Below, in pieces: positions 1,838 through 57,652 of a DNA stretch of 64,000 nt; positions within the stretch are counted from its first letter, which is position 1; each line of letters opens with the position of its first letter. Under the pieces are notes generated by a model. It was not told where the DNA came from, made no database searches, and saw only the letters and a program-made list of their open reading frames with translations. This stretch comes from Henricia sp. BOLD:AAB3569. Lineage: Eukaryota > Echinodermata > Asteroidea > Spinulosida > Echinasteridae. Both the position numbers and the translations under genes were made by a program. Location: assembly GCA_037783545.1 (NCBI GenBank), contig JBBELK010000826.1, positions 62,001-126,000 of the forward strand, read 5' to 3'.

Positions 1838-4800
1838 ATGATCAAATTTTTAGACGTGCGTGGTGACGTAAAAGAAAAATTTTGGCATTGTGCTCTGGTG
1901 GTCGTGGCGATGATGTTAATACAAGTTTCCTCACAACCTCAAAATGGTTTGTATCCGCTAATATCATTGTAAACATTTTATCAACAGTGCATAGGCCCTA
2001 CATAATAATTAGCTGCGCTATAGAATTTTCAAATTTAGAAAATCATTCTGAGCACTGTTGTCTTCTATTATCCTCAACTAAAATTAACTTTATACAGGGT
2101 GGATAAAACAAAACCGAAACCGAGATATAATTGCTAATTGTAACTAAAGTAGGGCACATCCTATGAACCAAAGGGATATATCCTCCGTTAGGGCTGAATG
2201 ACACATCTTAAAATAACACCCTGATCATGTCATTATGTTTTCGGTTTTCTTTTTTTGTTTTTTTTATATATATGTTTTATATTTTTTACAGATACACATC
2301 ACAAATATTGTGATGTCCTCCTCGCCTATACAAAACATGCCTAATGGTACAAAATAATAACACACACACACAAAAGTAATAAATTGCAAATATCATTATT
2401 TTAAAGATGGGTCAGAAAGCGATTTAAGCGATTTGCTTTCTGACAAAACTTGATCGTCCAAACAGGCTAAGCCATGTTTTTGGCATGCACTTGACGCCAT
2501 TAAAGAAAGTGGCGCAAATCCCAAACTATAGCCCCTTGCTTAACATTTACTGCTCGGTCAACCGAAAACATAATGACATGATCAGGGTGTCATTTTAAAG
2601 AGGAGATTCAACCCTAACAGAGGATATCTCCCTTTGATTCATATAATGCCCTACTTTAGTTACAATAAGCAATAATCTCTCGGTTTCGTTTTTGTTGTTG
2701 TATCCACCCTGAGCGTGTTCAGAAAAATGAATTTCGTTTTAACCTAACAATTATATAAAATACCTTCCCAAAATACTATCCACGGAAAGAAAACAGGAAA
2801 ATTTACCATCTCCAATTCGTGGGAGTAAACACGATGGTGTCATCACTGCACTGCTTTATGGAACCTGATAAATTAGTTTACAAAACATCGGTGGTTTTTT
2901 GACGATATCATTAAAAATATACGGATTGTGAACGCAAAAAATTCAGAATGGTCATTAGAAAAAAAATGATAATTGATATGGTACTAAAATCTCAAAACCC
3001 ATGGGAAAGATGGTGGGTCAAAAATGTGATCTGGTCACGTTCCTCTAAGTTCTCAGTTTTATATTAAGGAGGTTTAGATGAACGTATTGCGCGAACGTGA
3101 AAGCGAAATGCTTTCAACATAACACGTATCTTAAGAAGGTCTTAGAATCCAGGTCGAATCTTTGTCACGACAAAAAGTCCTCCCGCCAAGAAAATCACAG
3201 ATGTGAGGTTTTATTATATTTAAACTGTTGTCAAAGTGAAACTCTAATTTTTCATTTACAGAACCCGGTTACTTGGGTTGTTTCGTAGACGTGCCCAGAA
3301 ACCGCGCCCTGGGACCAGGTTTACTGATAACCAGCAAACAATCGGTGGAAAGATGTTTCAAATTTTGCTTGGACGAACAGGCTGGATCGCAAAGCTACAA
3401 GTTCGCTGGACTGGAGTACTATGACGAGTGTTTCTGTGGGAATAATGACAATTACGGGAGGCACGGAAAGACGAGGGAAAGTCCATGTGAAGCTAGGTGT
3501 GAAGGAAATCGTGACCAAATTTGCGGGGATAGCAACCGAATATCGATGTACAAAGGTGAAATTTAGAAAATCTGTTAAATTACTCACAATCTGATACACG
3601 TAATTTATTCGAAGCTGTTTTTAAAAGGAGACTTTCGAAACTCTTGGTGGCAGCAAATAAACCGGTCCCTTTTTACTGCACGTCACGCTTGAGCTAAAGT
3701 GCGCATGATCAGTATGACGTATAATTGAAAAGGACGGGTTAAAGTAAAAAAAAAAAAAATAACTTTAAGCTTTGTGTAAGCTACCACGTTTTGCACTTCA
3801 GCATCGAGACGGTGTAAGCACATTTTTTTGCAAAATCTAATAAGCATGGTCGAAATAACAAATGTTTGAGTTGAAAGGTGAATTTGTATTGGTTCTATAC
3901 AATCGATCTGTTTATGCCGCAGTATCTGACGGAGTGTGCAGTAACAACATTGGTCCACCAACCAACGGATCTCACCGCATCACCAACCCACGCTCTCTGG
4001 CTTACAATCTCAACAACTTCAAGTTCTTCGGGACTCGAGTAGATTTCTACTGTCACGATGGATATACTCTCCGCGGATCCTCGTCCATCCAATGCATTGA
4101 CACGGGATACAACAATGTCACGTGGAATGACACGGTGCCAACGTGTGAAGGTATTTTGGCGACTCACCAGAGATTTGCAAAGTTATCTGATTGCAAAACC
4201 ATAACCCATTTCCAACGCCCGGACATTATAAACACCAATTCAACTAATAATGTATGGTCGTCAGCAACAAATTACACCATCGCAAAACAAGGGCTTGTTT
4301 TCGTGACTGTATCCAGAAATATGTTTCTGACGTAACGATTAATTCAACCAATGAATTACTCCGGTTGCTGACGACCAAAGCTTGCCATTGGTTGAATCCG
4401 CAGTTATGTCAGAAACCTGTGGTCGCGAAAAAAGGCCCCAGAATCCCTTGCACATTACAAAGTACATGTAAATAGATTCTAACGCACCTAACATTTATGA
4501 AAGTTTGAAACAACACATTCCACTAAATTAAAGCAATATTAATATAATTTTGTGTCTTTAACATGTACATGCAGCTATACGACCCACGACAGTTCCAAGT
4601 ACAACCTTTCCTGCTACAACTTCCAGAGAAAGTGCCACATCTGTGCCTCTTACTACTGCAACACTGCCCCCTACAGTCGATGATCCAAAACCACAAGTAG
4701 GGCTGGCAACAGGTAGGTGTTTTTGAAACGACTTCCTTAAGCTTTGGCTTTTGCGGTATACATTAAGTATAACCTGCTAATATCCACATTTCTTTAAACA

Positions 4801-5673
4801 GGTGGAATAGTTGCAATAGCGATCGGAGGAATATCACTGACCCTGGTTCTGCTTCTCATTATTCTGATACTTTTATGGAGAAAAAGGTAAGAATTTTAAA
4901 GATGTTGTCCGTGCGTTTTGGGAGTGACACCTCAAAAAAAAATTTGAAGTTATTTGCTTATAAATGAGACAACAAAACAAATTGACCAAACGTTCAGTTA
5001 TCGAACAATTTGTCACTGTCAATATTTGATGAGAACTACCGGCAATATAACTTTAATAAAATTAGCCTATACGTTGGAAAAGATGATTTAAGTCCCAGCT
5101 GTTTATTGTGTATGTATTGGTTATAGCGCTCTCTGGATATAAAGCTATAATTAGTTCGGTCCCTTGAAAAGCTCTATAATGAGAGTTTACTGTATAATAA
5201 TAATTTTCTATCAAGAATCCTCAATACATGACATGTTGGTAGTAAACAGTGTTTCTTTTCCCCCACGTAATGCTACTATATATAGGACACGTAAAAATAC
5301 CAAATCTTCGAATGGGACCACCTACCAAAACAGCGCGTATGGATTAACAGACAACATCTACCAGACGACCTCAGAACCACAACAAACTGATGACGTAGTT
5401 TACAGCAACGTGAATCCAGACAACACAACGAGTGATGACGTATACGCAGTTACTGATGACGTCACTGATACAAGCCAGGACATTACAGCTACACAGCCTA
5501 GCCATTTAGACTCGCCTCAAGACTTAGATACAACTGAATGGACTGATAATACACTCTATGGACGTGCGTTGTTTCCTACTGAGTCGGCACAATCAACAGA
5601 GAATGTTTACGAACAAACAGACCATATTGAGAAGCGAACGTCAGGATGGGAAGAGAATATAATTTATGAGTAG
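1838..5673 (+). CDS. Gene A: signal peptide-WSC-Sushi-stalk-TM receptor-like protein, tail type 1 (six exons)
   Basis: Exons I assign: 1838-1946 signal peptide (hydrophobic core CALVVVAMMLIQVSS); 3262-3555 WSC domain (GYLGCF start, ECFCGN, ICGD, eight Cys); 3923-4150 Sushi/CCP (four Cys, conserved W before TVPTC, N-glycosylation sites NGS, NVT and NDT); 4575-4712 Thr/Pro-rich stalk; 4802-4886 transmembrane helix ending WRKR; 5286-5673 cytoplasmic tail. All boundaries are GT-AG. Introns 1-4 are phase 1, the last is phase 2, and exons total 1242 bases (413 residues). The tail has eight tyrosines: YQNS, YGLT, YQTT, YSNV, YAVT, YGRA, YEQT and the terminal IIYE. WSC and CCP modules commonly bind glycans or proteins. 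Surface-receptor function is inferred. The tail acceptor (TATATAG) is weaker than in C and D, where it is ACAACAG, so the tail start could shift slightly. Confidence 0.82.
2095..2711. mobile_element. TIR element with ~150-base terminal inverted repeats (intron 1 of A)
   Basis: The left end starts CAGGGTGGATA at 2095. The right end is its reverse complement, ending at 2711. The inverted repeat continues for about 150 bases on each side with scattered mismatches, including the shared CCCTGATCATGTCATTATG block. The roughly 300-base centre has no supported ORF. This is a non-autonomous DNA transposon or fold-back element of unassigned superfamily. Confidence 0.75.
2728..3060 (+). repeat. Dispersed repeat shared with intron 3 of gene B
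   Basis: The stretch matches 13345-13575 and, at its 3' end, 14205-14265. Shared landmarks include TATAAAATACCT, CACTGCTTTATG and TGATCTGGTCA. It lies just upstream of the WSC exon of A but downstream of the CCP exon of B, so it behaves as a mobile repeat rather than as part of the gene unit. Confidence 0.55.
4262..4445. mobile_element. Degenerate hairpin MITE in intron 3 of A
   Basis: Imperfect terminal inverted repeats: GGGCTTGTTTTCGTGAC on the left and GTCGCGAAAAAAGGCCCC on the right. The centre carries CCAATGAATTACT...GGTTGCTGACG...CCATTGG, itself palindromic. The same element sits at the same intron position in D (42125-42295). Relatives lie downstream of A, C and D. Confidence 0.6.
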
Positions 5674-7715: not shown

Positions 7716-10700
7716 ATGCCTTTATCGCAATTTATCATTCCGTGTGTGATTGCAGTATTTACAATTTCCATACAGTATGGATTGACATCTTCTCACCCAA
7801 CTAATGGTATGTATTCGCTCTTCAACCAGAGCTTTTATACACTCATGGAAAAAAGAAACGCACCACTTACTACAGTTTCAATATTTTATTAATATTGACC
7901 CCATGTTCTATTTTTGGCCAACAATAACTTATGTAAAGGTGTTGTCGGTATAAATTTTTTTTTTTAAAAACCATGTTATAAATGCACTAACATTGAAACC
8001 GAACGAACAAAATAACAAGGTACCCTGAAACTTCAGTTTGCAATAGCAGTTGGCTATACGAGAATTAAAGCCACGCGCGGGCCGCCATTGTAGCCCACGA
8101 ACAATACTTGGCCTAGCTCACAGATATCTATTTACAACAAGATAGGAAACGGAGGCCGTACAAGCATAACCGCGCCTTCTCATTAGCATACCCTCATTTA
8201 CATACTTTTGGGCCATTTACATACTTTTGGGCACATTTGCATAAGTATTTCCATATTTGCGTGGTTTAAGCCACCTCATTTGCATGATTTTGGGCACCGT
8301 AATTTGCATGATTTTTGGCACTTCTACATGGGTTTTCGCGCATGCGCACAGATGAAAGCGACTCGCGTCGCGTCCTCAAGTTTGGATACGCGCGATGTAC
8401 GCAAAGCCCCATTCGCGACGTGCGCGCAGTATTGGCACGCGTACGCGTACACCAGAAGGATGAACGAACTTGGTTGCTAACTGTTTACGTATATTGGTAT
8501 TTCTGTGCACAATTTAGCGTGACTTTTTTTGCCATTTTCCTCCGGATTAAGCAGTTTGGTGATGTGTAGGGTATTTCTAAACCCGTCAATGCCAGAGATT
8601 AGGACACACGGAACCTTGTTTGCACATCGTCTTCCAGCACAAGGTAGACAATTTGAAAATCTTTCTTATCAAGTTTGTGCCATGTTTTTGGAACTCACAT
8701 ATCCCGGACTCCGTTCGCTATGTAGTATGCAGTAACGAGTCCATACCGTCGCGACGACGGTCGAAATTGTCTTAAATAAACCTTGCAATATCGTGGCAGA
8801 TTCTATTCTGTCAAGACATTGCTTCAATTAGATACAATATTCAAACTACATCACCTTTATAGCTCCATGGTTACAAGTTTAAAGTATATTTTCAGCATAA
8901 TAAGCCCGGAATTTGCGCCACACTGGTCAAAAACAAGATGGTCGTTTTAATTTTTTTTTTCCGGGTATGTTAATTTTGACGTCATGAGATCAAACATAAA
9001 TTACATAAATATTTAATGTTACGCACGCGCACACGTTCGGAACCGCCCCAAGCCGGTTACGGCGATGTGCCATTCAATAACACTGTCGTTTCCTATCTTG
9101 TTGTTAATAGATATCTGTGGCCTAGCTAGACTGCATGCTCCCCGGTCGCTTGCATGCCACTTAACACATGTAGACCATGACGTAGACTAGTGAAGACAGT
9201 ATGACCAGTCTAGGCAATGCATTGTATTAGGTGGGGTACAATGGTGGATGGTGACTTCAATTTTAGACATCGTTGCTTCATCCAGTGTATATATATCGAT
9301 GACACAACGTGATGCTTTCCGCTTTATTGGTTTCACCATCAAAACATGCCAAGAAAATTTATATAAGCTTATAATTAATATAAAATGTTAAGTGGACACA
9401 GACCGCAAGGATATTATAGATGGAATAAAAAACGCCTCGACAAATGTATTGATAAAAACCTGATGGTAGTTGACACCGGCGATAAAATAGGAAGAAGAAA
9501 ACAATTACTAAAGTCGATTAAACGCTATGCGAATGAATTTAAAAATATTATAAGTAAAACGAAGCAACATCTACTATAGCTCATCGACAAAGAAAGGTGA
9601 AGCTACAGGTAAAAAGGGTAAGTATACACAAAGAAAGATTATTTAGAGTCGATCAGAATTGTTGGGAACCAATCTACCGTGAAACTATAAATCCCGTCGA
9701 TTTTGATGGAGCAGTGCCGCGCAGATTTACCAACGTGATTCAAAATTACGAAATCAAAATAGACCGAGAGAATGTAGATTAGGCCTACGTCAACTTTTTC
9801 AAAGACAATAAAATTAGAAATAAAATGGCTGAAACGATATAGAACAAACCTAATTACAATTTTCAGTTGGGTTTACGGGTAACTCTAAAACGAATCACCA
9901 CACAATTAAGGCGAAATTGAGGAAAAAGAAATTACCTTCCTTTTTAAATAATAGCGACATCAGCTCGGCGTTGAATAATACTACAGAGAATTTAAAGGTA
10001 AAACTACAAGAATTTCAGACGGAAAAGAGTGGGTGGACAGTGAGTAAGTTAAACATGCTGTATATCTATGAAACGTTCCGTTCTTGACGACATTTATGAA
10101 TCCATTGCTTGATAGAAATTTTTATTGGATTCATACATAGACGACAATCATGACGCCTTTGTTCATGTTTGCAAATCTGTGATCCATGACATTCTATACA
10201 TTGGTATCCTATTCTACCGTGTTTGCAGATTCCCACGCCATGACAATCAACACACCTGTATTTCCGTTTTTCATGATTGCATTACATTTTTATTTTCTTT
10301 CATTGCACTTGATGCATGCCGAGCATCGCAAACCATTAAATTTTATCTTAAATTCATCCACAGTTTTATAAACGCGACATGCCATATACATAAAAAAATT
10401 CGTTTGCACTTTCCATTTTATATAATTTATAAGCTTAAATATAGATTTCATTTTTTAAAATCTCATTTTTCTTGGCATGTTTTGATGGTGAAACCAATGA
10501 AACGTGAAGCATCACGCCATATTTTTCGTGCAGTCGATGACCTTAGATTTGTTTACGAGTTAAAAATCACTCAGGCGTATCCTTAAAATAGTAGGCCTAT
10601 TTGACAAAAGAAACTATTTATTCAGGTTATGAAACAAAGTTAAACATACAGATTGAACATCAAATTTTGACACAGAAAGTCCGAGGAACTAAAGCGAGTT

Positions 10701-13700
10701 CCACCATGAACAGTCTACCGGACATGTGACACTTAGCCCCACGGCACACACACACGTTGGGACTGGTACAGTGCCGTGGTTTGTGCAGCCATACTGCCGG
10801 ATGTGTCTCGTCATCAGGTGTTTAAGTCTGTACACCTACTCTGGCTCCACGCGGAACTACAGTTGAATGTTCGTGAAGACAAACTATAAATGCCAGCTTC
10901 TCCACAGAAAACGGAAAACCCATTTGGGCTGTCCAGTGAAATCTTCAGCAGAAAATGAGAGATATTTAAAGAAAAAGCTGCCACATGAAGAGCGAATCGT
11001 TTGCGACGAAATCGTGAGTCTCGGTCGCGCGATAGTAAACGGCTGGTAAAGCGTATAGGCTAACTCGACTATTGACCATTGTTGTTAATTTTAAGCTTTT
11101 GTAGTTAATTACGGGACATTTTGAAGAACATTTTTCACAAGGACCATCAAAAAATGTATTGTCAATGAAGCTACATCACTAAATTACCGGTATATAAACA
11201 AAATATCAAAATAAAAAGCTTGATCAAAATTAGCTTCTTTGCTCTTTCTAGCTCCAGGTTATTTAGGATGCTTCGTCATGATGAGGGATAACAATATAGC
11301 TATCCGGAAAGACAGCGGAAATCAGTCCATTGAGTGGTGCTTCAGATACTGCTTAGAGACGGTGACCAAACCATACAAATATGCTAAAGTTGAAAACGCC
11401 AAAGAATGCTTCTGTGGAAATGATGAAGATCATGACCAATACGAAGAGAAGGAAGATTCGGAATGCCAGGACAAGTGTACGGGCAACAGCAACCAGATAT
11501 GCGGAGATTCGGAGAGAATATCCATCTACATAAGTAAGATAGGGCCTATACATACATGTATCTATGGTTTATACATCTTTGCCTTAAAAATTAACTTATC
11601 GTCGATTTGGGGCTGGGTCATTCCATGTCAATTCAACAAGCTTTTGGACCTGACCCTCACAGATTGAAATGAAATTTGGTGTGCTGATTGCACTCCTTGA
11701 GAAACCCCGAGAACTAAAATTTTATATCATTTGGTCAATTAATTGTTGAGATACGGGTCAACGAACTTTGACTAATTAGCATGATTAGCTATGTTTGGAC
11801 AGTTATATCTCTAAAAGTAATGGACCTAGAGAGATAAACTTTACATAATTTTAAAGCTCTTGAAATGGGCTTCATTTTAAAAAATAACTTAAATTGTATC
11901 TCGTACCACAAAAATGCGTATTTGTCAAAATGCGTAATTTTGTTTTATTTGTTAACTTAAGATGTAAGGAACATTTCCACAAAGATTTGGGATGGGCACT
12001 CTTACAGTTTTTGAGTTATGATAATTTTAACATTGGCTAACATGCAAGTAACATGTAAAAACCATGTACATAGTATTTACATGGTATTTACATATTTACC
12101 AAATTTCATTTCAATCTGTGAGGGTCATGTCCAAAAGCTCGTTGAATTGACATGGAATGACCCGGCTTTAAAAAGAAGTAAAAAATTGCAACAATGACAT
12201 TTCTTTTCGACAATTTAAATCAGGGGAAAAACATGTTTAAAATTCTAAATGTGTCGTTTTATTTTAATAAACTAACCCAAATTTGGGTACAAACTACATG
12301 TACCGGTACCCGAAATTGGGTCCATACACCAAACAAACAGATATAAACGGCCCAAAATGTTTGTAGTTGCAGTTTTCACCCTATCCGTGAGTAGGCCTAT
12401 ATGTAACCTTGGCAACTTTTCAGTGACGTCTTTAAAATCAATTTATCATCGATTTGGCGCTGTAAAAATAAAATTGTGACAATGACACCCCTTTTCGATA
12501 ATTCCAATCAGAGAATTAAAATACTTTTAAAAATTATATTAAAATGTGTTTTTTTCCTTTCAGTATCTCGGGGAGTGTGCAGTAACGACATTGGTCCCCC
12601 AACCAACGGATCTCACCGCATCACCAACCCACACTCTCTGTCTTACAATCTCAACAACTTCAAGTTCTTCGGGACTCGAGTAGATTTCTACTGTCACGAT
12701 GGATATACTCTCCGCGGAGCCTCGTCCATCCAATGCATCGACACGGAATACAACAATGTCATGTGGAATGACACTGTGCCAACGTGTGAAGGTTAGCAAT
12801 TTCAATACTTGCCCAAATAACCCCGCCCCTTGGATATTGTTGCTATGCCTCACACGCTATCGTCAAAATGCCTACACACACTGCACAAACCAATGGGACT
12901 TTCAACGGAAAGCACAGATTAATTGGAGAAAACTCAAAGGTATTCATGTTTCAGGGTCGACAGTTATCTTAGAACACACTGAGTAAAGGGCTAGTAATAC
13001 AGGGATGTCATATCATGAAATACGTGCTTTCCTCCCTTTGAAGACCAAATCGCCCGGCATTAAAATCAAAAATTCACACGGATCACCGCATACAACACTG
13101 TACAAACTGTATGGGCAGAAATCGCGTGATGTCGTTTGTGACCTACCGTATGTGGGCGCTGCCTGCTAGCTCTGCCGGGTTCGGCTTGATTGACAGGTCG
13201 GAACTATGTATTACAAGGCCCTTCATAAAACATTAACCATGATCTAAAAATTAAAAATACTACACGGTCAAAATGAATAGTTAGAGCCATCCCGTGGCAT
13301 TCTTGCTGGCAGAGACTTTCACAAGCGTCACCGATTTTTCAACAACAAAAATGGATTTCGTTCCAACCTAAAACCAATCATATAAAATACCTCCTAATTC
13401 ATGGGAAGAAAACACGAAAACTGCAATCCCCAATTTGGATGCGTGGAAGCAAAAAGATTGGTGTATCACATTGCACTGCTTTATGTAACCGGATAAATTA
13501 GTTTACCAAACTTAGGTGGATTTTTGATGATATCCCTGGAAATATACGCGAAATTTGAGAATGTAATGAGAAAAATATGACGTATGATATAATAGACCGT
13601 GTAAGTCTCGCGGCGGGTCACACTTCCGGAAACTAGTCAGGGAATGGCAATGGGATTTTAACATTGTGACGATCTTCTTTGACTTATCACTTTACTGTAC

Positions 13701-15981
13701 CTCATTTGTAAGCGCCCAAACACCAATAAATGGAAAAGGCAACTTAAAATCTATCGATTCAGTAAATGATGGGAAATGTTGTCCGAGTTTGTCACAAACA
13801 AATAAAAATGTTGACCTTTTGTTTCCCTTTTGCAAGTACCTTTACGAATGGCAGGCTCACTGGCTTGGTGCATTTCAGAAATATTAGCGTTGCTAAATCA
13901 AATATCTGGTGTGAACGTCAACTTGAACGTTCACGTCCATTGAGAGTAGATAAAACCACCAAAAATCACAAACAAATAGTATACATGGACAGAAATCAAA
14001 CAAGACGGAAATTGCAAAGACCACCTGAAGCCGAATCAAGAACTTTTGAAAACGGCTATAATGCAACGTATTCGCGCCAAATACACGGTACCAAAATATT
14101 CGCGCCGTGTCTTAAAACTTATACATGTATACGAGGTCTCCAGTCTCGCGGAGTCCCGCACGCTCTCGCGGTCAACTTTAAATACACGGTCTACATGTAT
14201 ATATCAAAATCTCAACACCCAAGGGAAAACATGAGTGCGTCAAAATGTGATCTGGTCATGCTCCTTTAATTAGCCTTTTTGAAGTATGGCGGACACAATA
14301 GGAGGGCGCACTTTGCAGTGGGTATAAAATCGACTAAAATGCAAAATAACTCAGTTTTTCACTTTACACTTATTCATTTTATTTATAATTCTGTCTATGT
14401 ATTATAATTACAACATGTAAATCAAGTTTTTGGAAAGAAATACAATTGATAAAAAAATTCATACCCAAATGAAATTGCGCCCTCTCCTTGTGTTCCGCCA
14501 TACTTCTAAAAGGCTAATGGGTTACATCCTTTTCATTCATTTCAGAAAATGTATCTGTGACGGCTGTTGAGGACACAACGATATCTCGTATGACCACTGA
14601 TACGAGTCAAGAAACCACGTCTGGTAATGGAGTCACTGAAGGGCAGATCCAAACAGAAAATGTGTTCAATATTACAAATATACTCACAATTAAGGCCCTT
14701 CAGCAAAACCAATATATCTTTTTCATTCATTTCAGAAAATGTATCTGTGACACTGACGGCTGTTGAGGACACAACGAAAACTCGTTTGACCACTGATGAT
14801 TTAGAAACCACAGGTGTACCACAACAATCAAAATGTACTTTTTCCTTATATACATTGTACATTGAACACAAATTTGAATGAAATTTGAATGGAATCAACA
14901 GACCATCCAAGATAAACTTCCTACATGTACTTGCACTTCTGTCAGAAACGTTGCATTTCTGAGGTAAATAAATTATATAATTACTGCATAAAGTAATGCA
15001 CAAAAGTACGGCGCGAGCGGTCTGTGCGTAAGCGCGACAACAGAGGGTGCTGCGCGCGCGTCAATGGTTATCTTGTGCACTGAATGCAAATTTTTTAAGG
15101 AGAAAATGCGATTTTTCTACAGAAAGCAACATTTGCAACAAAAGTGCAAGTGGGAAGTATATTTTAAAATTAGATTATCTGTTGATTCCAGGAGGTAACT
15201 AATTTTCTTCAAATCCTTGTTCAACGTATACCAAAAAGATAAATAATCTGCCCCCAAATTTATACAAACGTAACACAATCTAATAAAAATCCATTCCTGT
15301 TTTTCAATGCAGGTCTAATCACTGGCATTGCCGTTGGAATGGCAGTAGGAATAATTGTCTTCGCAACAAGCGTTATTTTCGTGTGGAAAAAGAGGTGAGA
15401 TTGTCAGTTTCATTTTCTAAATATATCTCTTCAGTTCTTTTAAAAGATTAATTAACCAAATATGGAATGAGGAAAAACCAAATCAATTGGAACACATCAT
15501 CGGGAATCGAACCTAAAACACCTGACACACAGAACAGGTACAGGTACTTTACCAGCTAAGCCATACATTGTTAGGTTTCTCTTAGTGTTGCGTTAAAGCA
15601 CACTGGTACCTAATCGCCACATATTAAATGAAAAAAAAGTCATCATCGGGATTCGAACCCGAGACCTGCAGATTTAACAATATCACTTCTCGATTCAAAC
15701 CATTTTATCCGAATCCAAGCAACTTTTGACTCGGCTCAAGACCAACTTTCACTTTCCGTTTCAGACAAAAGCAGCGTGTAGACATATCGTTACCCACAGA
15801 CGGGCCATCGTTATTGAAAGCGGTTTTTAAAAAACCAGTTCAACCACAACAAGGCACCGTGCCGGAATACAAGCCGAACCACCCTACAACCAGTGACGAG
15901 TACACGACACATAATGAGCATGAGGTCATCATACTCCCCAATAACGACACCCCTGTGACATATTGCCAACTGATTGGTTGA
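7716..15981 (+). CDS. Gene B: WSC-Sushi receptor-like protein with shortened type-2 tail
   Basis: Exons: 7716-7806 signal peptide (MPLSQFIIPCVIAVF start); 11252-11533 WSC (eight Cys, short N-terminal loop); 12564-12791 CCP; stalk 14736-14813, with a sister stalk exon at 14546-14623 also usable; 15313-15394 transmembrane (GLITGIAVGMAVG, then WKKR); 15765-15981 tail. Frames close exactly: 325 residues with one stalk exon, 351 with both. The stalk differs from A, C and D and resembles E. The tail is homologous to the first half of E's but reads VTYCQLIG-stop. It therefore keeps an ITIM-like VxYxxL but lacks the distal half and the ENIIYE end. A remnant of that distal half lies at 26501-26722, beyond a 10.5 kb gap. 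Whether B is functional with a short tail or a degenerating copy cannot be decided from sequence. Confidence 0.78.
8119..9119. mobile_element. hAT-like non-autonomous element with 8-base target duplication (intron 1 of B)
   Basis: The termini are inverted repeats of about 32 bases starting CACAGATATCTATT. The element is flanked by the direct repeat GCCTAGCT at 8111-8118 and 9120-9127. An 8-base duplication with a CAxAG-type end is typical of hAT transposons. The 1001-base interior has no transposase ORF. Near the left end (about 8180-8330) are iterated units around CATTTACATACTTTTGGGC and ATTTGCATGATTTTGGGC. Confidence 0.8.
9308..10518 (+). mobile_element. TIR element carrying decayed DNA-polymerase-like coding fragments (intron 1 of B)
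   Basis: Inverted ends of about 50 bases: 9308-9358 against 10465-10518, sharing TTGGTTTCACCATCAAAA. Inside are short broken + frames at 9385-9579, 9597-9782 and about 9930-10090, interrupted by in-frame stops. The fragments around FQLGLRVTLKR and FQTEKSGWT resemble, from memory, the region upstream of the polymerase core in Polinton/adintovirus-like family-B DNA polymerase ORFs. That assignment is tentative. No core polymerase motif is present, so this is a relic. Confidence 0.4.
11615..12163. mobile_element. Long-TIR element in intron 2 of B, with empty site in D and F
   Basis: It starts GGGTCATTCCATG and ends with the reverse complement. The inverted repeats extend about 80 bases through the AGATTGAAATGAAATTTGG block. 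The equivalent intron in D and F reads TTTGGGGCTGTAAAAAG. In B this is split by the insertion and GGCT is duplicated on both sides. Length about 549 bases, non-coding. Confidence 0.78.
12820..13205 (+). repeat. Dispersed ~400-base repeat, inverted copy at 33172-33595
   Basis: This stretch of intron 3 of B matches the reverse complement of 33172-33595 over most of its length. Shared landmarks are CTTTCAACGGAAAGCACAG, TATTCATGTTTCAGGGTC, CTTAGAACACACTGAGTAAAG and TCATATCATGAAATA. No conserved reading frame is evident. I treat it as a mobile repeat of unknown class. Confidence 0.6.
14269..14518. mobile_element. Hairpin MITE in intron 3 of B
   Basis: The left end ATTAGCCTTTTTGAAGTATGG is mirrored on the right by CCATACTTCTAAAAGGCTAAT. 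The inverted repeat continues through the GGAGGGCGCA / TGCGCCCTCT block. About 250 bases, AT-rich and non-coding. It lies directly before the first stalk exon of B. Confidence 0.7.
15640..15672 (-). repeat. tRNA-derived SINE fragment (B-box) in intron 5 of B
   Basis: The reverse strand carries a B-box-like GGGTTCGAATCCCGATG near 15650. Related minus-oriented tRNA-like remnants occur in the same intron at about 15490-15560, in intron 5 of E (51180-51390, GGGATTTGAACC...CTCTACCAGTTGACC), and at about 44940. They fit old SINE insertions inherited by duplication. Confidence 0.5.
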
Positions 15982-16374
15982 ATGGCTTATTCATTTCTTC
16001 GGCCACGGCCACCCACAAAGGTGATATGAGAGCCAATAAATTACAGGCAGAAAAACAAAAATAAATTAAATCGTGATACAGATACCGAGGTGCAAGTTAG
16101 TAAACAACTCTTCAAAATCTTTTAACCTTAACATAGCTAGTCTCAATGTTTGTGGTTTACGTAGCAAGTCAAAATACGGTATTTTAGAAAGCTTAAAGAA
16201 TTTGATTTAATTTGTCTTACTGTGCAACTATATATTAGCACTAAGGATCACTTTCATATATACACTCGACCCAAAAAGTTCGGTCACCAGTAAGACTTTT
16301 ATAGATATTTATCATTAAATTGGATTTAATGTAGGAAAATAATATATCAAATTTTAGCTGAACATATCCCTCAA

Positions 16375-16715
16375 AGGAATAGAGATCATGATGGCAAGTT
16401 TCACTGAACAGGAATGCAACAAAGGAGTGTGCATGGGCTCAGAATGAAAAACACCAAAGAACAATGCAACTTGTGATTTGGGCAATTTGTGTGTAGACAA
16501 TTAGGAAATTCTTAAGCGAGTTTGGATTTATCATCTTCCTCCATGGATTTATCAATGCCTTGTCAAAAACATAAAAATGGTTAAATTGTTCAACCTGAAT
16601 CCTGCCATTGCATTAGGTATGTTTTTCATTCTGACCCCACACTCCTTTGTTGCATTCCTGTTCCGTGAAGCTTGCCATCATGGACTCTGTTGAGCTCTAT
16701 TCCTTTGTAGCGGTA
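16375..16715. mobile_element. Inverted-repeat element (hairpin arms ~75 bases)
   Basis: The left arm 16378-16455 and right arm about 16600-16690 are reverse complements with a few mismatches. The shared core is GGAATGCAACAAAGGAGTGTG, seen on the right as CACACTCCTTTGTTGCATTCC. No ORF is supported. Confidence 0.65.
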
Positions 16716-26500: not shown

Positions 26501-26722
26501 CCTGATGACATCATCATACTCCCCAATAACGACACCTGTGTGAAATATTACCAACTCGAGTGAGAAAGTCACATGTACGAGACCAGCGTGAATACAGCAC
26601 TAAACGGACGGGAATCTGGAGCAAGGGACGTCGGTGGAATTAACGAGCAAACGGACATTGCACCTCCACTAATTGTAATGAAAGGAAAGCCGGGATGGGT
26701 GGAAAATATCATCTATGAGTGA
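26501..26722 (+). pseudogene. Type-2 cytoplasmic tail remnant
   Basis: It matches codons of the E tail from PDDIIILPDSDT to the terminal GWVENIIYE-stop, including KYYQLE. An in-frame TGA replaces a Gly codon just after KYYQLE. No splice acceptor, TM or upstream exon lies next to it. The region ends like the other genes of the family, so it is a detached or duplicated end of a type-2 gene, probably B, separated by the segment that carries the DIRS-like element. Confidence 0.75.
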
Positions 26723-26803
26723 ATCCATAATTATCAATCCTATCATATACCTTCAATATATAATAATGACCTCCGTAGTAAATGAGTTGGCTCGCCGCTC
26801 GCC

Positions 26804-26836
<33 letters not shown>

Positions 26837-26837
26837 T

Positions 26838-34530: not shown

Positions 34531-34679
34531 GGGCGTTTTCTCCCGATTTTTCACTAACCAATTGAGGCCAATGAGGGCACGTTTGCCGATTAACAATATC
34601 CCTGATTCAAACCATTTTGTCCCAATATACACACAACTTTTGACTCTGCTCAAGACCAACTTTCACTTTTCTGTTTCAG

Positions 34680-34741
34680 ACAAAAGAAGCAACATGCAGA
34701 CACATCGTTAGCCACAGCCGGGCCATCTAATGCTACGTCAC
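34680..34741 (+). pseudogene. Type-2 tail exon fragment (first ~20 codons)
   Basis: A TTTCAG acceptor at 34674-34679 precedes codons equivalent to QKKQHADTSLATAGPS, homologous to the start of the E tail exon (51566). Similarity stops at about 34741. The preceding intron sequence from 34530 also matches intron 5 of E. Everything upstream (signal, WSC, CCP, stalk, TM) is missing, so this is a deletion relic. Confidence 0.72.
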
Positions 34742-48390: not shown

Positions 48391-51300
48391 ATGGCTTTTA
48401 TGTCAAACATATGCGGATTCCCATGTGTGATTGCTGTAATTCTGGTTATCGTGCAACTTGGATTAACCACGTCACAGCCACAGAACGGTACGTTCTTAAT
48501 TTGGGTTTTTGTAGTACAATCAAAATGATTACATTAGACACCATAATATATTGATTATTGTTGGTTTTGTATTTTAATATCACTACGACCGCGGATGTGT
48601 TCCTATAATTTTCAGTAAAATTTGATTCTTGTTATAGGTCCAGGGTACTTAGGGTGCTTCGAAGATTGTCCGAGATGGTTGATATGTAATGACCGCGCCC
48701 TACAACCAATCGGACCGATAGACAGCGATGATCAGTCGGTTGAGTGGTGCTTCAGACACTGCTTAGAGTCCAAATCATCCAACTACAAATATGCTGGGCT
48801 CGAATACGAAAAAGAATGCTTCTGTGGGAATAACGACAATTATGACCGACACGGGAAGAAGGAAGACTCAGAATGCCAGGATGTGTGTACGGGCAACATC
48901 AATCAGACATGTGGAGATGATGAAAGGGTGTCCGTTTATCGAAGTAAGACATTCCGTTATAAATCATGCCATGAATAAATGTAAAATCATATAAATCATG
49001 CCATAAATAATTATGTAGAGGTTGGTGTGGTTTGTTGCATTGGACACAAGCCTCGAATTCAAACTTTAATATAGATTAAAAGCACAATGGAAATTCAGAG
49101 GGCGTATATGAAATGCCAAATTCGTGCCACGAATTATGCAGCTCCATGCCTTTGCTCTCGAGTATTTTATTTTTAAAAGTATTATATAAAAGTGTTATAC
49201 ACTGTACCAACTTTCACCATTTGGAGATGCAGCACTTGGGTAGAACTTCCACGTTTGAAACTGTATACCTATAAGAACGACGTCCTTGTGTCATTTTAAG
49301 AACGGGATTTTGAATACGCCCGAAAACTCATGTGCCCTCCCCCAAGTTGGCTGAAAATGTTATGTACATTCAGACAGAGTTATTTCCCTGGGTTATTTCC
49401 ATTTTTTGTGATGTGCTTGTGTTTGTCCCAACAAACCTGGCACTTCCCAGTATCTGACGGAGTGTGCAGTAACGACATTCGTCCATCAACCAACGGATCT
49501 CACCGTATCATCAACCCACACTCTCTGGATTACAATCTCAACAACTTCAAGTTCTTCGGGACTCGAGTAGATTTCTACTGTCATGATGGATATACTCTCC
49601 ACGGAGCCTCGTCCATCCAATGCATTGACACGGGATACAACAATGTCACGTGGAATGACACGGTGCCAACGTGTGAAGGTTAGCAATAGACCAGTTGCGT
49701 GATAGATTTGCATAAGTCCTGGAGTTGTGCCTTATATTTACATAAATGGGTCTTTCTATAAATTAGGGGTCCAATGTTGGTGTCCCCCGTTACATTTTAC
49801 ATCTTGTTTTTGTAAATTCAGGACACATTCTTTAAATACTTTCCATCTCAAAGAGTGAGTACATAAAGTACAATTCATACAAAATGGTTTAAAAGCCATT
49901 TTAATGATTTTTGTACGAAAAATAACACATATCAGGTGTAACGGGGGGACACCAAATGTCACACTTTTGGACCCCTAATTTATAGAAAGACCCAAATGCT
50001 AGAGTCCCGCCTTCGCGCTATATGGCGCTCGTGTACGAGTGACTCAAGCACCATACTATATCTGGCAAGTCGGCCCCGTTTCGGGGGATGCACGCTGGCA
50101 CATGGAAACTGTACGGTACCTTGAATAGCTCGCACATTTTCTATATATGTACTTCTAAGCTTGACCATGTTGATTGAACATGTTGATCAGCAAATTTAAA
50201 CCAGTCACATAACCCAATATCGTTTCTCTACTTTCTTGAATGCATCATTGCAGTTTAAAAACGTTCATCGATTTCAAGTAAAAAAACATGTTATATTTTG
50301 TTATTTTGACGACATGTTTCAACATGTTCATTTCAACATGTAATTTCGGATGGTCCAGCTTAAAAATGCATAGAGTAATGTGCGAGGTATTCCAGGTACC
50401 GCACAGACTTTCGTGCCGGTTAATATGGACCAGCTTGCACCCCTCTGGAAACGGCCTCATTTGCCAGGTAGTCTGGTGCTTGACTCATTCGCATGCGAGC
50501 GCCATAGCGTGAAGGCGAGAGTCTAGGATTTATGCAAATCTGTCATGCAACTGGTCTATTTCAATAATTATACAGATACCTACAAGGCCCTTCAGAAAAC
50601 CAATATATCTTTTTCATTCATTTCAGAAATTGTATCTGTGACGCCGACGGCTGTTGAGGACACAACGATATCTCGTATGAGCACTGATACGAGTCAAGAA
50701 ACCACGTCTGGTAATGGAGTCACTGAAAAGCAGATCCAAACTGGTACATGTACATGTATACCACAACCATCGAAAACACAACCTGGGCTGCTTTCGAGCA
50801 GGGCACCAGGGATCCCTGGTGCTCCCCCGAAAGCGTGTGTACGGTACGCATGTGTGTGACGTAACGTTCCCAACACCTAGGAGCACCAGGGACGAGCGCT
50901 CAAAAGCAGCCCTGGACGTCGGGTTTCTATATTCAATGATAATAGGCCATACAATGAATAAAATATAACTTTCCTCTTTTTGTTTTAGGTCTGATCATTG
51001 GTATTGCGGTTGGAATAACAATGGGAATAATTGTCTTCACAACAATTGTTATTTTAGTGTGTACAAAGAGGTGAGATTGTCAGTTTCATTTTCTAAATAT
51101 ATCTCTTCAGTTCTTTTCAAAGATTAATTAACCAGATATATGGAATTAGGAAAAACCAAATCAATTGGAACACATCATCGGCAATCGAACCTAATTACCC
51201 GACACACAAAACATATACCCTACCAGCTGAGCTGCGGTTTCAATAGATTGTTGCGTTAAAGAACACCTATAAACAAATTAGTGAGGTGCATAATCAGCAG

Positions 51301-51962
51301 GAATGAATAAAAAAATCTCATCGGGATTTGAACCAGAGAAGATCTGACACACAGAACAGATGCTCTACCAGTTGACCTACAAGACAACACGATATCATTA
51401 ACATAATTTTTTGTTAAGAACCCAACTTTTTTCTCTCGATTTTGCACTATCCAATTGAGGGCATCGTTTGCATGATTTAACAATACCACTGCTCGATTCA
51501 AACCATTTTATCCGAATATACACAACTTTTTGACTCTGCTCAGCAACTTTCACTTTCTGCTTCAGACAAAAGAAGCAACGTGCAGACACGTCGTTAGCCA
51601 AAGCCGGGCCATCAGTTTCGAATGCATCTGATGGCGATAATGCGGCTGTTGAAATTCCAGTTCAACCACTACAAGCCGCCGTGACGAAATACAGTCAAGT
51701 TAACAAGCCGAACACTACAACCAGTAACGAGTACATGTATGCCACACCTGATGATATCATCATACTCCCCGATAGCGACACCTGTGTGAAATATTACCAA
51801 CTCGAGGGAGACAGTCACGAGACAACCAGCGTGAATACAGCACTGAATGGACGGGAATCTGAAGCAAGGGACGTCGGTGGAATTAACGAGCAAACGGACA
51901 TTGCACCTCCACTTGTCATGAAGGGAAAGCCGGGATGGGTGGAAAATATCATCTATGAGTGA
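48391..51962 (+). CDS. Gene E: WSC-Sushi receptor-like protein, full type-2 tail
   Basis: Exons: 48391-48487 signal peptide (PCVIAVILVIVQLGL core, like B); 48638-48943 WSC (ten Cys); 49451-49678 CCP; 50627-50743 stalk; 50989-51070 TM; 51566-51962 tail. The total is 1227 bases, 408 residues. An earlier phase-compatible stalk donor (TCTG|GTAATG, 50710) would remove 11 residues. Tail tyrosine motifs: YSQV, EYMYATP, the ITIM-like VKYYQL and terminal ENIIYE. Serine/threonine and acidic stretches separate them. This is the only intact type-2 tail in the window and serves as reference for the remnants at 15.8, 26.5 and 34.7 kb. Intron 3 carries nested TIR elements. Confidence 0.84.
49685..50560. mobile_element. 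TIR element in intron 3 of E, with a second element nested inside
   Basis: The outer ends AATAGACCAGTTGC and their complement lie at 49685 and 50560, with inverted repeats of about 35 bases running into AGATTTGCATAA. Nested at 49747-49994 is a second element with ends TGGGTCTTTCTATAAATTAG and their complement, about 248 bases. Both are non-coding. Confidence 0.75.
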
Positions 51963-53395: not shown

Positions 53396-56300
53396 ATGAC
53401 CAAGCATTTGATGCGAGCGACTGTGCTTCCGTACGCGATCTTCGCATTAACGATTGCTACACAAATTGGATTGATGTCTTCACAGCCACAAAACAGTAAG
53501 ACCTTTTTGAGATTAATTTATATTTTAGGCAATTTAATGTGCAAAAAGATTTATTTCTGTTACTTAACACATTACATGAGGACCAATGTTGTAATTGTCA
53601 ACTTCGGGTTTTAAAAAAAGGATACAACTCCGAGTCGTGCTCTAAAACAACTCGTAGTGCCCGTAAGTTCTGGTAATATATTCTCAAAAGTTCTAAGACT
53701 GTTAAAGAGGCTCATTTGTTCACTAATTTTAAATTATGTGTAATTTGATTCATTTTAGGTCCAGGGTACTTGGGATGCTTCAAGGATTGTCCATCAGGCT
53801 GGCGGAAATGTAGTGGCCGCGCTCTCTCAATCGGACCGATAAACAGCGATGATCAGGCGATTGAGCGGTGCTTCAAGACTTGCTGGGACAGACTGTCGGC
53901 CAGGTACACATACGCTGGCCTCGAGTATGAGTATCAATGCTTCTGTGGGAATAAGGAAGATTATGGCCGACACGGGAAGAAGGCAGACTCGGAATGCCAG
54001 GACATGTGTAGTGGCAACAACAACCAGATATGCGGAGATTCGGACAGAATATCAATTTACAGAAGTAAGATGTCAATGATTTATACATTTTTGCCTTTAA
54101 AATTAATTTATCGTCGATTTGGGGCTGTAAAAAGAAAACAATTTTTGCGACAATGACCCTGTTCTCACTAGAGAAATCTCTTCGTTCGACGAAGATTAAT
54201 TAATTATCGTTAGTTAATGAAGCGTGCGTTCACATATCACTTAATGAAGCTGTAGAAGGTCGTACATGCGCGTGGCGCGTCAAAAACAACGCTTGCTGGG
54301 CGCTTGACACACAACGCGCTTGTGCAACCAGGCCAGTCAAATTGATTTATTGAACGAAGGGAGCGTTCTCATTACAAATTTGCTTCGTCGAATGAAGCGA
54401 TTTCTTCGTCGAACGAAGCGATTCTAATCATTGTCGAATGAAGAGGCGTGCGTTCACATCAGGAAAACTCCTTGTCGTATCAAGCGATTTCTGTAGTGAG
54501 AACGGGGTCAATGACATCTCTTTTCGACAATTGAAATCAGGGAAAATAATTTTTGAAGATCTAATTGCGTTATGTTGTTCCATTCAGTATCTGACGGAAT
54601 GTGCAGTAACGACATTGGTCCCCCAACCAACGGATCTCACCACATCACCAACCCACACTCTCTGGATTACAATCTCAACAACTTCAAGTTCTTCGGGACT
54701 CGAATAGATTTCTACTGTCATGATGGATATACTCTCCGTGGAGCCTCGTCCATCGAATGCATTGACACGGGATACAACAATGCCATGTGGAATGATACGA
54801 TTCCAACGTGTGAAGGTTAAAAAAAACACGTTTGTAATTTACCCATACTGAAACGGCCTCGTTTAAAGTTTTAATTACACATTCCACAAACTGTTGCAAA
54901 CTATAAAAAAAACTGTGCTTGAAACTAATTACATTCCTAATACAATGTTGAGAACTCAAAAAATAAAGCACATATTTAAGGAAAAACATCTGTATTTTAT
55001 TCATTTTTGATTTTCCAAGACAAAACCAATGCCCCTTTTAATTATTTACTTTTCGGCCGTTTGTCAAAACAGAGGAATTCAGAAACACTTTTTCATTCGA
55101 TTTTTTGTCAATAGACCGATCCAGTAAGCTCCGCCCATTTTGGAATTGACCAATCACAGCCTCAGGTTGAGGTAACCAAAAAGTAGATCCCCCTTTGGTT
55201 ACCCGAGTCCTCAATTTTGTGCACAAAGCTACGGCGAAATGCAGCACGAGTGACGCAAAAACACCATAAACATCATTTTTATCAGCGCAGAGGACCCGGC
55301 CTAGCCGGTTTAAAACGGATTGTATAAGATATCCAAACCTACTTTTAAATCCTTCATAAATGTGTTTTTGTGTAAACGGGAAAAACTCGCCAAAATTAGC
55401 TTGTCGTTATGCTATGTTGTGCATTCACTGCATTCTAGATGTGTGTCGAGATGTTTTTGTCGATCGCGCGCGTTACGCGTATTGCAGGCGTGTTGTCACG
55501 ACCAGATACTTAAGTGCACATTTTGCTTTCGAGCGTGCAGTGTGCGTGTGCGTGTTTCAATACGCGCTGACCAGATGCGGGCGCGGACGCACGGCGCGGC
55601 CAGGCGACTCTACTGCATGCGTGCCTCATATGTATGGCATGTTGCTACATGCTAGGCAATTTCTAAATGGGCGGAGCTTACTGGATTGGTCTTTTAAATT
55701 TCGTTTAAAATCAGTTGAAGAGTGGACAACCATTTCTATGACAACAACCATGACAACTTATCCAACTACATGGCCGGAAATAGCCACAACAGAATCTTAC
55801 ACCAGAGGAGACGGGACAGAACCACTGAGTTACGGCACCGAGTCCACTTGGGGAAGAAACATGACATGGGAATCTGAAGCCGGCACAAGTCAAAGACTAA
55901 CGGAGGAGACTTCTTTGATAACACATAGGCCTACTAAGAATCCGACAAGTGGCAAATTAGCGACAGGTGCACTGTTCGTTGTTTTCAATTTATTAAAAAT
56001 ATACTAGATTTTGGTGGTTTTCACAGACAATAATGGGACTATTAAGATGATATTGCAAGTAAATAAGTTATGTAACGGGATGTTCAATTGACTTCAGAAT
56101 ATTACTATAGGTTTCCTTGCATTTTACTCTTAAGATGGCATGTGCAATATGATTCCCAAATTTCTAGGGAATAATTTATAATACCGTGGTGCCTTTAACT
56201 AATTCATTGATGCACAATTCACGTGAAGAGGATTCATGCTCACGATGCTCGTTTTTTCAGGTTTCCAGTCCTTAAAAATATCCCTTATAGTCGCAAGCTA

Positions 56301-57652
56301 TAATAAAAACCGAGAAAGGTAAGAAACGTACGTTTGCAAAATTAATGACAAACTTCCATTTTTCAATAGGTACAATAGTCGGAATAGCGGTTGGAATTGC
56401 TGCAGTGGTCGGAATACTTCTGCTGTTGGCGTTGATACTCTTATACCGAAAAAGGTGGGTATTTTTGTTGGGACAGAGATAAGTCTGGAGGGTCTATATT
56501 TACATTCATTCTTTATTACTGTAAAGTGGTCTCAAATTCCGATGCAGGCAGTCTTTTTCAGAGGCAAAATACATAATTAGTCATTCAGTTAGTATCATGA
56601 GTTGTACTTATGATTATTCACACCATGTTTATACATATTCAAAGATCAAATTTAAATGCCAGTACACATACATGTAAGGTATTTGGGTCTGTCCACAGTA
56701 ATGGGGTACATTTCTGTAACATTCAAGATCTTAGGTCCGTGTTCACTTCAAATGTCTTAATTTTATCTTTAAATTATCAAGCTAAACTGAGGAAATAACT
56801 TTTTCACCAAGGAGTAAGAAAAATAGTCCTACAACATACATTTCTGAAAACCCCGTGCACAAATTTTCCTATTACGCGTGTAACAAAGACGGAAAAAAAT
56901 GTCACAAAATGGTCTGTCCACGTTACCTACGTAATAGGAAAATTTGTACACAAGCTTTTCAAAAATGTATGTTGTGGCAGAAATTTTTTACCTTTTTGGG
57001 CAAAAGTTATCTCCTGAGAACAAAACAAGGACATTTCTTTATTTCTGAGATAAACTAAAGACATCTGAAAGGAATTATTGACTTACTTTTCAAATGTACC
57101 CCATTACTGTGGACAGACCCATATAAATTTCACGGTATGCTCTTTTGGCTGTGCAAGCCCTCTGGTTCACGGGACATTACCACAGAAATGCGCACACGTA
57201 AGCAAAGATGAAGTGATTGACCAAGTGATTTTGACCAATCACGCAGGAGACTCAAGAAAAACGAGTCTTCAGATGTTCCAATGGCTACCATGGGCAGGAA
57301 TTACCACCCAAACGAATTCACTGATCAGCTGAGCAGCGACGTCATCTCTCAACCACCGCTCTACAGCCAAGTTAGTAACAAGCCCAAGAAACTTCCAAGA
57401 GGTTATGTCAACCATAATGTTGACGTCACGGACGCAGTATCCAATGGCGAGATCGCAACTGGAAATGAACAACTGAGCAATGGCGTAATTGGTTCGTCGC
57501 CGAACGGTGACGAAACCCTCTGGGCTGAAAACGAACTGTACGGAAAGCAGTTATACCCGAGAGAATTGGACCACGAGGAAAAAACTGACGGAACAACGGA
57601 ATCAACAATGAAAGAACAACATGGTTGGGTTGAAAATATCATCTATGAATAA
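53396..57652 (+). CDS. Gene F: WSC-Sushi receptor-like protein with divergent stalk and tail (type 3)
   Basis: Exons: 53396-53495 signal peptide (like C and D); 53759-54064 WSC, close to D; 54588-54815 CCP; 55715-55966 long stalk rich in Thr, Ser and Trp/Tyr; 56370-56454 TM (IVGIAVGIAAVVGILLL, then YRKR); 57247-57652 tail. The total is 1377 bases, 458 residues. The tail acceptor CACGCAG at 57246 is the only one nearby that keeps frame. Tail tyrosines: YHPN, YSQV, YVNH (a YxN type), the paired YGKQLYPREL and terminal GWVENIIYE. The ELYGKQLYP segment aligns with TLYGRALFP of type 1, and LYSQV with YSQV of type 2. Type 3 therefore shares pieces of both classes. An AATAAA lies near 58115 in the 3' flank. 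Confidence 0.82.
54157..54508. mobile_element. Palindromic MITE in intron 2 of F, 6-base target duplication, empty site in D
   Basis: CAATGA occurs at 54151-54156 and 54509-54514. D has one copy in TGTGACAATGACATCTC. Ends are CCCTGTTCTCACTAGAG / TGTAGTGAGAACGGGG. The body is full of CTTCGTCGAACGAAG-type inverted words. A sister copy lies at 62669-63030. Confidence 0.85.
55109..55695. mobile_element. TIR element in intron 3 of F
   Basis: Ends AGACCGATCCAGTAAGCTCC and, on the right, GGAGCTTACTGGATTGGTCT, with inverted repeats of about 30 bases including CGCCCATTT. The interior includes CpG-rich sequence and no recognised protein. The open frame that runs from it into the stalk exon is fortuitous upstream of 55715. 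Confidence 0.72.
56684..57121. mobile_element. TIR element in intron 5 of F
   Basis: Left end TGGGTCTGTCCACAGTAATG, right end its complement. An inner inverted pair is CAAATTTTCCTATTACG / CGTAATAGGAAAATTTG. Length about 438 bases, non-coding. Confidence 0.78.

Follow-up and report, generated by a model that had tools for sequence, protein, structure and literature searches.

Six tandem WSC-Sushi genes of a sea star as candidate kinase-less members of a paired-receptor family

A 64,000-nucleotide stretch of the genome of the sea star Henricia sp. BOLD:AAB3569 (contig JBBELK010000826.1, here C826, positions 62001-126000; hereafter the window) carries six head-to-tail genes, g1 to g6, each coding for a predicted transmembrane protein with a WSC domain, a CCP (Sushi) domain, and a cytoplasmic tail with several tyrosines. 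The question raised by this locus is whether these genes form a receptor family of their own or are part of a larger system. An earlier note on this DNA had proposed an undescribed receptor family, and this holds insofar as the proteins are receptor-like, have tyrosine tails, and no description of them was found in the literature searched; the family does not stand alone, however, as its ectodomain is common to receptor tyrosine kinases (RTKs). Because the same ectodomain is present on RTKs both in other sea stars and in the Henricia genome itself, the reading shifts from a stand-alone family to the kinase-less half of a paired one, and on balance we lean toward an undescribed family of paired receptors in which the six genes are the members without a kinase, and in which recombination at the CCP exon would exchange the ectodomains.

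The array lies on the plus strand and spans 1838-57652, the ends of the span coinciding exactly with the first ATG and the last stop codon. Each of the six genes has six exons, which code in turn for a signal peptide, the WSC and CCP domains, a Thr/Ser stalk, a transmembrane (TM) segment, and a tail. Rebuilding the models reproduced the single shared architecture, GT-AG joins, and exact frame closure described previously, with GT-AG at all 30 introns, intron phases of 1,1,1,1,2 in every gene, and one stop closing each model; the splicing is predicted from this closure, from conservation between the copies, and from homology to annotated proteins. Exons 1 to 5 are separated by introns of phase 1, so that whole modules could be swapped with the frame intact. 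The genes, in window coordinates, are as follows.

1838..5673, plus strand: g1 (413 aa); exons 1838-1946 (signal peptide), 3262-3555 (WSC), 3923-4150 (CCP), 4575-4712 (stalk), 4802-4886 (TM), 5286-5673 (tail, class A); from splice sites, frame, and Pfam
7716..15981, plus strand: g2 (325 aa); exons 7716-7806, 11252-11533 (WSC), 12564-12791 (CCP), 14736-14813 (stalk), 15313-15394 (TM), 15765-15981 (truncated tail, class B); from splice sites and frame
28166..32569, plus strand: g3 (425 aa); exons 28166-28259, 28719-29018 (WSC), 29188-29418 (CCP), 29893-30063 (stalk), 31854-31938 (TM), 32173-32569 (tail, class A); from splice sites, frame, and Pfam
35929..43534, plus strand: g4 (414 aa); exons 35929-36028, 39855-40157 (WSC), 40323-40550 (CCP), 42384-42521 (stalk), 42831-42909 (TM), 43138-43534 (tail, class A); signal peptide, WSC, and CCP like those of kinase loci RTK2 and RTK3
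48391..51962, plus strand: g5 (408 aa); exons 48391-48487, 48638-48943 (WSC), 49451-49678 (CCP), 50627-50743 (stalk), 50989-51070 (TM), 51566-51962 (tail, class B); WSC and CCP like those of kinase locus RTK1
53396..57652, plus strand: g6 (458 aa); exons 53396-53495, 53759-54064 (WSC), 54588-54815 (CCP), 55715-55966 (stalk), 56370-56454 (TM), 57247-57652 (tail, class C); WSC close to that of g4 (synonymous divergence, dS, 0.116)

The g2 stalk has two candidate exons, and an in-phase donor was found by eye for the second only (14736-14813). Pfam matches support both extracellular domains in all six proteins (best E values of 7.8e-17 for WSC and 2.9e-7 for Sushi), as the earlier note had proposed checking; the curated cutoffs are passed by g1 and by all eight WSC or CCP exon frames tested, the remaining two of the ten frames being tails without any match. 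By sequence, the WSC part is nearest to Kremen among solved structures (5fww, E 1.5e-16) and the CCP part to complement receptors. A GxxxG pattern is present in 23 of 27 listed TM stretches, the g3 entry in that list being a wrong stretch and not its TM. Weak matches of three of the six proteins to the SIT transmembrane adaptor (PF15330; best E 0.0018) were rejected, with g1 scoring 14.4 bits against a gathering cutoff of 27.6; identity as WSC-type cell wall sensors was also rejected, and rests on automatic names.

Where else does this ectodomain occur? A profile search gave 21 matches, made up of 20 sea star proteins (14 from Patiria miniata and 6 from Acanthaster planci) and one fungal WSC protein, and in 9 of the 20 sea star WSC-Sushi proteins a tyrosine kinase domain is present as well; since matching depends on short words in common, the search does not speak to absence in other echinoderms. 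Using the ectodomain of a kinase-bearing member as the query gave 24 matches, including a further Patiria kinase and an Asterias rubens protein, together with distant matches to an amphioxus Sushi protein, a crinoid protein, two fungal WSC proteins and an unnamed one, and a bird protein. The relatives span Valvatida (Patiria and Acanthaster) and Forcipulatida (Asterias), and some of them are RTKs with the same ectodomain. Catalytic motifs are present in all ten sea star kinase proteins checked, and the kinase of Patiria protein P0012 matches a solved chain labeled EGFR first and FGFR1 to FGFR3 for the rest (among the best 60 of 214 matched). For all six Acanthaster proteins found, the contig of origin has the same length, 2.88 Mb. 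The crinoid protein (Antedon mediterranea P0028) has a WSC domain and eight Sushi stretches, a WSC-CCP pairing outside sea stars in another arrangement.

The Henricia genome (740.7 Mb in 2,104 contigs) contains both kinds of gene. A CCP query gives 24 matches, of which 23 are strong (the weak one, with E 3.6e-5, is left out of the counts): 8 on C826, 7 on contig C3 at 2.36-2.41 Mb, 4 on C192, 2 on C141, and one each on C388 and on C3 at 0.69 Mb. Fifteen of these are kinase-less and lie in two collinear arrays (C826 and C3), and eight are elsewhere. FGFR-like kinase exons are present on the same strand within ∼14 kb of all eight copies outside the arrays and of none of the 15 inside them. The genome-wide kinase search scored 126 of 473 candidates and thus lists a minimum; a direct search covered C826:1-156000 and the C3 array, and neither the window nor C826:1-156000 gave a tyrosine kinase match.

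Six kinase loci (RTK1 to RTK6) were read as DNA; for RTK3, the kinase exons were located by the genome search and lie outside the DNA that was read. Five of the six resemble a window gene (g1, g4, or g5) in the part upstream of the CCP end. RTK2 (C192:1370001) matches g4 with 91.3% identity over 907 bp (39657-40553) and 87% of WSC residues, and RTK3 (C192:1285001) matches it with 91.2% identity over 906 bp; in both, the signal peptide agrees with that of g4 as well (94% of residues), and the upstream sequence resembles those of g3, g4, and g6. RTK1 (C192:1240001) resembles g5, with 79% identity over the WSC exon and part of the next intron, 90.5% over the CCP exon, and 79% of WSC residues, and RTK5 gives the same alignment to g5 (79.0% over 504 columns). 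RTK4 (C192:1214001) is 84 to 96% identical to g1 from intron 1 through the CCP exon. Closely similar ectodomains on different chassis in one genome, as in paired receptors, are found for RTK2/g4 and RTK1/g5, although not for RTK6. The resemblance stops at the 3' edge of the CCP exon, a position referred to here as the seam.

3923..4150, plus strand: CCP exon of g1; end of homology with RTK4, alignment stopping at 4153
40323..40550, plus strand: CCP exon of g4; end of homology with RTK2 and RTK3, alignments stopping at 40553
49451..49678, plus strand: CCP exon of g5; end of homology with RTK1, alignment stopping at 49680

Alignments to the matched gene thus end 2 to 3 bp beyond the exon edge in RTK1 to RTK4 and within 3 bp of it in RTK5 and RTK6, and those between kinase loci and other array genes extend up to 17 bp past it. 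In 100-bp blocks, identity is 0.82 to 0.98 in the three blocks before the CCP end, 0.50 to 0.54 just after it, and 0.54 to 0.60 further on in all four loci tested, compared to a level of 0.54 to 0.57 for shuffled sequence; the fourth block back is at 0.61 in RTK1. Downstream of the seam nothing besides dispersed repeats matches the array, and the kinase loci there resemble each other, with RTK2 and RTK4 being 96% identical over 3,445 bp.

Synonymous sites show the same modularity within the array. The proportion of synonymous differences in the CCP exon is 0.04 to 0.20 in all 15 window pairs, compared to 32 to 94% for the 5' part in 14 of them (10% for g4-g6), and in 13 pairs the CCP value is the lower of the two at p <= 0.05, the exceptions being g4-g6 and g3-g6. 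In the 3' part the differences are 67 to 78% in the 11 pairs between tail classes and 10 to 20% in the 4 pairs within a class. Two pairs are discordant in opposite directions: g1-g4 (5' part 0.88, 3' part 0.11) and g4-g6 (5' part 0.10, 3' part 0.67), each with 0 of 1,000 permutations. The first 100 bp of both CCP-flanking introns are nonalignable in 7 of the 15 pairs. A larger set comprising the window, the C3 array, and two kinase genes, from which pairs with C3 gene B1 were dropped (owing to a disturbed 5' end in the reading of its CCP), gives median synonymous differences of 0.14 for CCP and 0.53 for WSC in 28 kinase versus kinase-less pairs (CCP lower in 26), and 0.10 and 0.82 in 91 kinase-less pairs (CCP lower in 87). 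A g1-g2 WSC identity of 0.01 was discarded as an aligner artifact.

Similar combinations are seen elsewhere. In Patiria, the two kinase proteins P0012 and P0015 have kinase domains that are 98% alike and WSC domains that are 62% alike, and kinase-less P0002 shares 86% of its WSC with P0015. Acanthaster P0016 and P0017, annotated as isoforms X1 and X2, have 489 identical residues after the CCP and share 45% of the WSC only, with the start of P0017 resembling the stalk after the cassette; these may be alternative ectodomain cassettes joined by splicing.

The C826 array and C3:2342001-2422000 are collinear on both flanks (blocks of 82 to 98% identity on the left and 91 to 97% on the right), and their middles differ in gene number, with eight and seven genes, respectively, in the stretches read. 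These are probably two haplotypes of one locus, with a recent segmental duplication as the alternative, and there may be haplotype copies among the kinase loci too, as those on C388 and C192 have similar scores. Window gene g6 and C3-array gene C1 agree in the TM (98.8%) and tail (93.4%), although the g6 WSC is nearer to that of A3 (88.6%) than that of C1 (77.8%), and the same position thus carries a different module in the two arrays. Each array begins with a gene, g0, coding for WSC and CCP, in which no tail was recognized by the tail queries used; between g0 and the next gene on C826 is a 647-residue open frame with tetratricopeptide repeats (C826:36500-38440). Further groups of WSC-coding exons are present on C419, C1358, and C164, and since the CCP query has no match on these contigs they are probably different WSC families.

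The tails contain 8, 3, 7, 7, 6, and 6 tyrosines in g1 to g6, in agreement with the range of 3 to 8 noted earlier, except that the lowest count belongs to a truncated tail: five of the six are ∼130 residues long with 6 to 8 tyrosines and a conserved end, and the g2 tail has 74 residues, lacks the C-terminal motif, and has drifted (ratio of nonsynonymous to synonymous divergence, dN/dS, of 1.38 versus g5 over 71 codons). This motif, WxENxIYE, is present in five of the six window genes, in four of seven Patiria and three of four Acanthaster kinase-less models, and in the single Asterias rubens relative, which ends in PGWVENIIYE; the other models end earlier. Alignment of kinase-less tails across species gives the order YxN, YSxV, VYATPDD, [DE]NxxY, and then WxENxIYE, with all four inner motifs being present in g1 and g3 only (the third as VYAVTDD or VYSVPDD). 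These tyrosine motifs are putative SH2/PTB docking sites under rules that we assume to apply here, in which YxN is Grb2-like, YxxP Crk-like, and NxxY PTB-like. The consensus (I/V/L/S)xYxx(L/V/I), which we take to be that of the immunoreceptor tyrosine-based inhibitory motif (ITIM), is fitted by VVYSNV in g1, g3, and g4, and g5 fits only TxYxxV, presumably the form of the corresponding switch motif (ITSM); the YSxV sites of g2 and g6 fit neither, and the relatives often carry a P before theirs. A protein search with the tail only gave six matches, all of them WSC-CCP proteins, and there is thus no evidence of this tail on other ectodomains.

A scheme can be proposed in which the moving units are 5' modules composed of WSC and CCP and, in two kinase loci, of the signal peptide as well. 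These would pass between 3' chassis with and without a kinase, and from one array gene to another, through gene conversion or unequal crossing-over that is resolved within or at the edge of the CCP exon. Recombination resolving there would swap recognition modules and homogenize the CCP exon as a by-product. In such a system the WSC domain would bind ligand, the near-constant CCP may help like receptors to come together, and a kinase partner or a cytoplasmic kinase would phosphorylate the docking tail, which could then recruit SH2/PTB proteins. The same ligand would then be read into two outputs by receptors whose WSC domains match, one with a kinase and one without, as in vertebrate paired receptors. 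It is possible, although we hold this more tentatively, that recognition in sea stars is modular as a whole: a single set of WSC domains would be dealt onto kinase and docking-tail chassis at the CCP seam, with copy number and WSC-tail pairing differing between haplotypes, and kinase genes may also splice cassettes. Such a system would be an invertebrate counterpart, with RTKs as its basis, of paired, fast-changing immune or self-recognition loci.

Several observations weigh against the paired-receptor reading. Kinase and kinase-less kinds are both present on C3, 1.67 Mb apart, but most lie on different contigs. RTK6 shares strongly with the array the CCP exon only, the RTK1-g5 match reaches only 79% over the WSC and leaves out the signal peptide, and the RTK4 WSC exon (in C192:1214001-1224000) lacks 58 bp relative to g1, such that this kinase copy may be broken or nonfunctional. 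Dispersed repeats are present to either side of the seam, and a 160-bp repeat from the next g4 intron is also in RTK2 and RTK3. Inner tail motifs vary, with g2 lacking nearly all of them, g5 lacking YxN and the fourth-motif ([DE]NxxY) tyrosine, g4 having C for Y in the third motif, and g6 and three relatives being without VYATPDD. The WSC tree does not reject the window genes as one clade (approximately unbiased test, p-AU 0.489), and neither this tree nor the tail tree (which leaves out g2 and P0011 with their short tails) showed the window paralogs to be older than the species split. The CCP pattern itself could also reflect strong constraint on the exon, at both protein and synonymous sites, in genes that are simply old duplicates; invariant columns are indeed more common in CCP (24 of 73) than in WSC (19 of 110) among 26 sequences. 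We nonetheless consider this very unlikely, given that residues shared by the window genes and absent from the 20 other sequences occur at 5 of 73 CCP columns and 0 of 110 WSC columns, that the flanking introns turn from alignable to random at the exon edge, and that in the CCP tree one branch sets apart the window genes (100/99) and another those of Patiria (94/90), although the genes of Acanthaster are not set apart in this way.

Two further explanations were considered. If the six proteins were stand-alone innate pattern receptors signaling via Src/Syk-type cytoplasmic kinases, with the kinase receptors related in sequence and not in function, then the single-TM architecture and multityrosine tails, the ITSM form in g5 and ITIM form in g1, g3, and g4, and the different copy numbers of the collinear arrays would all be accommodated; the matched 5' modules of kinase and kinase-less genes would however be an unexplained coincidence, and WSC lacks pervasive positive selection, making this unlikely in our judgment. 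The dN/dS for WSC is 0.23 to 0.54 in the 10 of 15 window pairs with unsaturated dS and gives no sign of pervasive diversifying selection, and the innate immune recognition role suggested in the earlier note has so far not found support. The kinase-less forms could alternatively be decoys or dominant negatives that share the ligand of the kinase receptors and dampen them, their own tails setting trafficking only, a notion in keeping with ectodomains shared with an FGFR-like kinase family, the truncated and drifting g2 tail, and inner motifs that differ between genes. A pure decoy would not need WxENxIYE, which is kept in Patiria, Acanthaster, Asterias, and most of the window genes, and we regard this explanation as quite unlikely.

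The window also contains remnants and repeats, and its order is read as g1 (A), g2 (B), B remnant, g3 (A), B remnant, g4 (A), g5 (B), g6 (C).

26501..26730, plus strand: class-B tail-exon remnant, 92% identical to g5, frame interrupted
34536..34727, plus strand: class-B tail-exon remnant between g3 and g4, 82% identical to g5, with flanks like g5 upstream and downstream sequence
36371..39486, minus strand: LINE-type retrotransposon (long interspersed nuclear element) in g4 intron 1, with an endonuclease and reverse transcriptase match in the 36934-39486 frame and no Pfam match for the 36371-36961 frame

Both tail remnants adjoin intergenic sequence resembling that around g5. Continuation of the g2 tail at 26501 was considered, and the piece, with its interrupted frame, is treated as a remnant of another copy. 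The intervening 10.5 kb (15971-26501) includes a GC-rich element (19484-26320) with inverted repeats of ∼170 bp near its ends and tandem repeats of 107 and 235 bp; no Rfam family matched this element, and rRNA genes were rejected for the GC-rich 20- to 26-kb region, where Rfam gave just a tRNA nearby. A tRNA-like sequence (27049-27106) is in the spacer before g3, and as parts of it recur together with its surroundings in the RTK2 and RTK3 loci it may belong to a repeat. The 160-bp repeat is present at 40901-42064, in the g4 intron between CCP and stalk, as several copies in both orientations, with copies in the RTK2 and RTK3 loci.

How do these genes relate to known systems? Among the closest are the sea star WSC-Sushi proteins at NCBI (e.g., LOC119728864 of Patiria, LOC110978761 of Acanthaster, and LOC117304667 of Asterias), which have the same domains and tail end and with which the window genes belong; they bear automatic names (cell wall integrity component-like, SLG1-like), and none was found described as a receptor family in the literature searched. 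Fungal WSC cell wall stress sensors have a WSC domain, a Ser/Thr-rich stalk, and one TM, and are not known to have a CCP or a tyrosine docking tail; they are the source of the misleading names, whereas the genes described here belong to an animal and are relatives of kinase receptors. FGFRL1 is an FGFR family member without a kinase, and kinase-lacking FGFR-like proteins may dampen kinase receptors; a kinase-less relative of a kinase receptor, here with an FGFR-like partner, is a known design. FGFRs have Ig domains, unlike the WSC and CCP domains here, and in the sea star the forms without a kinase make up a multigene array and have long tyrosine tails. Kremen is also an animal TM protein with a WSC domain, organized as Kringle-WSC-CUB (PMC3927609); neither kringle nor CUB is among the 13 families matched in a Pfam scan of the window proteins, and CCP and a tyrosine tail are not in the Kremen makeup given in that paper.

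Among vertebrate paired receptors, Siglec-11/16 (PMC5701461) and CEACAM (PMC8860441) are kept alike by gene conversion, with CEACAM1 and CEACAM3 forming a pair (PMC5112662). They have similar ectodomains on two signaling chassis, with ectodomain exons exchanged by gene conversion and cytoplasmic parts that stay different, and comparable recombination is proposed here. They differ from the sea star genes in that the sea star domains are WSC and CCP, one chassis is an RTK, the host is an echinoderm, and the most homogenized exon is CCP and not that of the variable WSC domain. No description of a WSC-CCP receptor family, RTK included, was found among the matches listed for openly licensed literature on WSC, Sushi, and receptor kinases in echinoderms and metazoa, nor by a term search of PMC10320347, and a pair of an RTK and a kinase-less tyrosine-tail receptor with recombination-swapped ectodomains was not found in the literature searched.

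The locus offers exact, testable units in the matched pairs RTK2/g4 and RTK1/g5, the defined seam, and the conserved tail end, and sea star genes named after yeast cell wall sensors are misnamed relatives of kinase receptors. If the paired-receptor reading is true, it would show how recognition can be diversified and signaling kept constant in an animal that lacks adaptive immunity.

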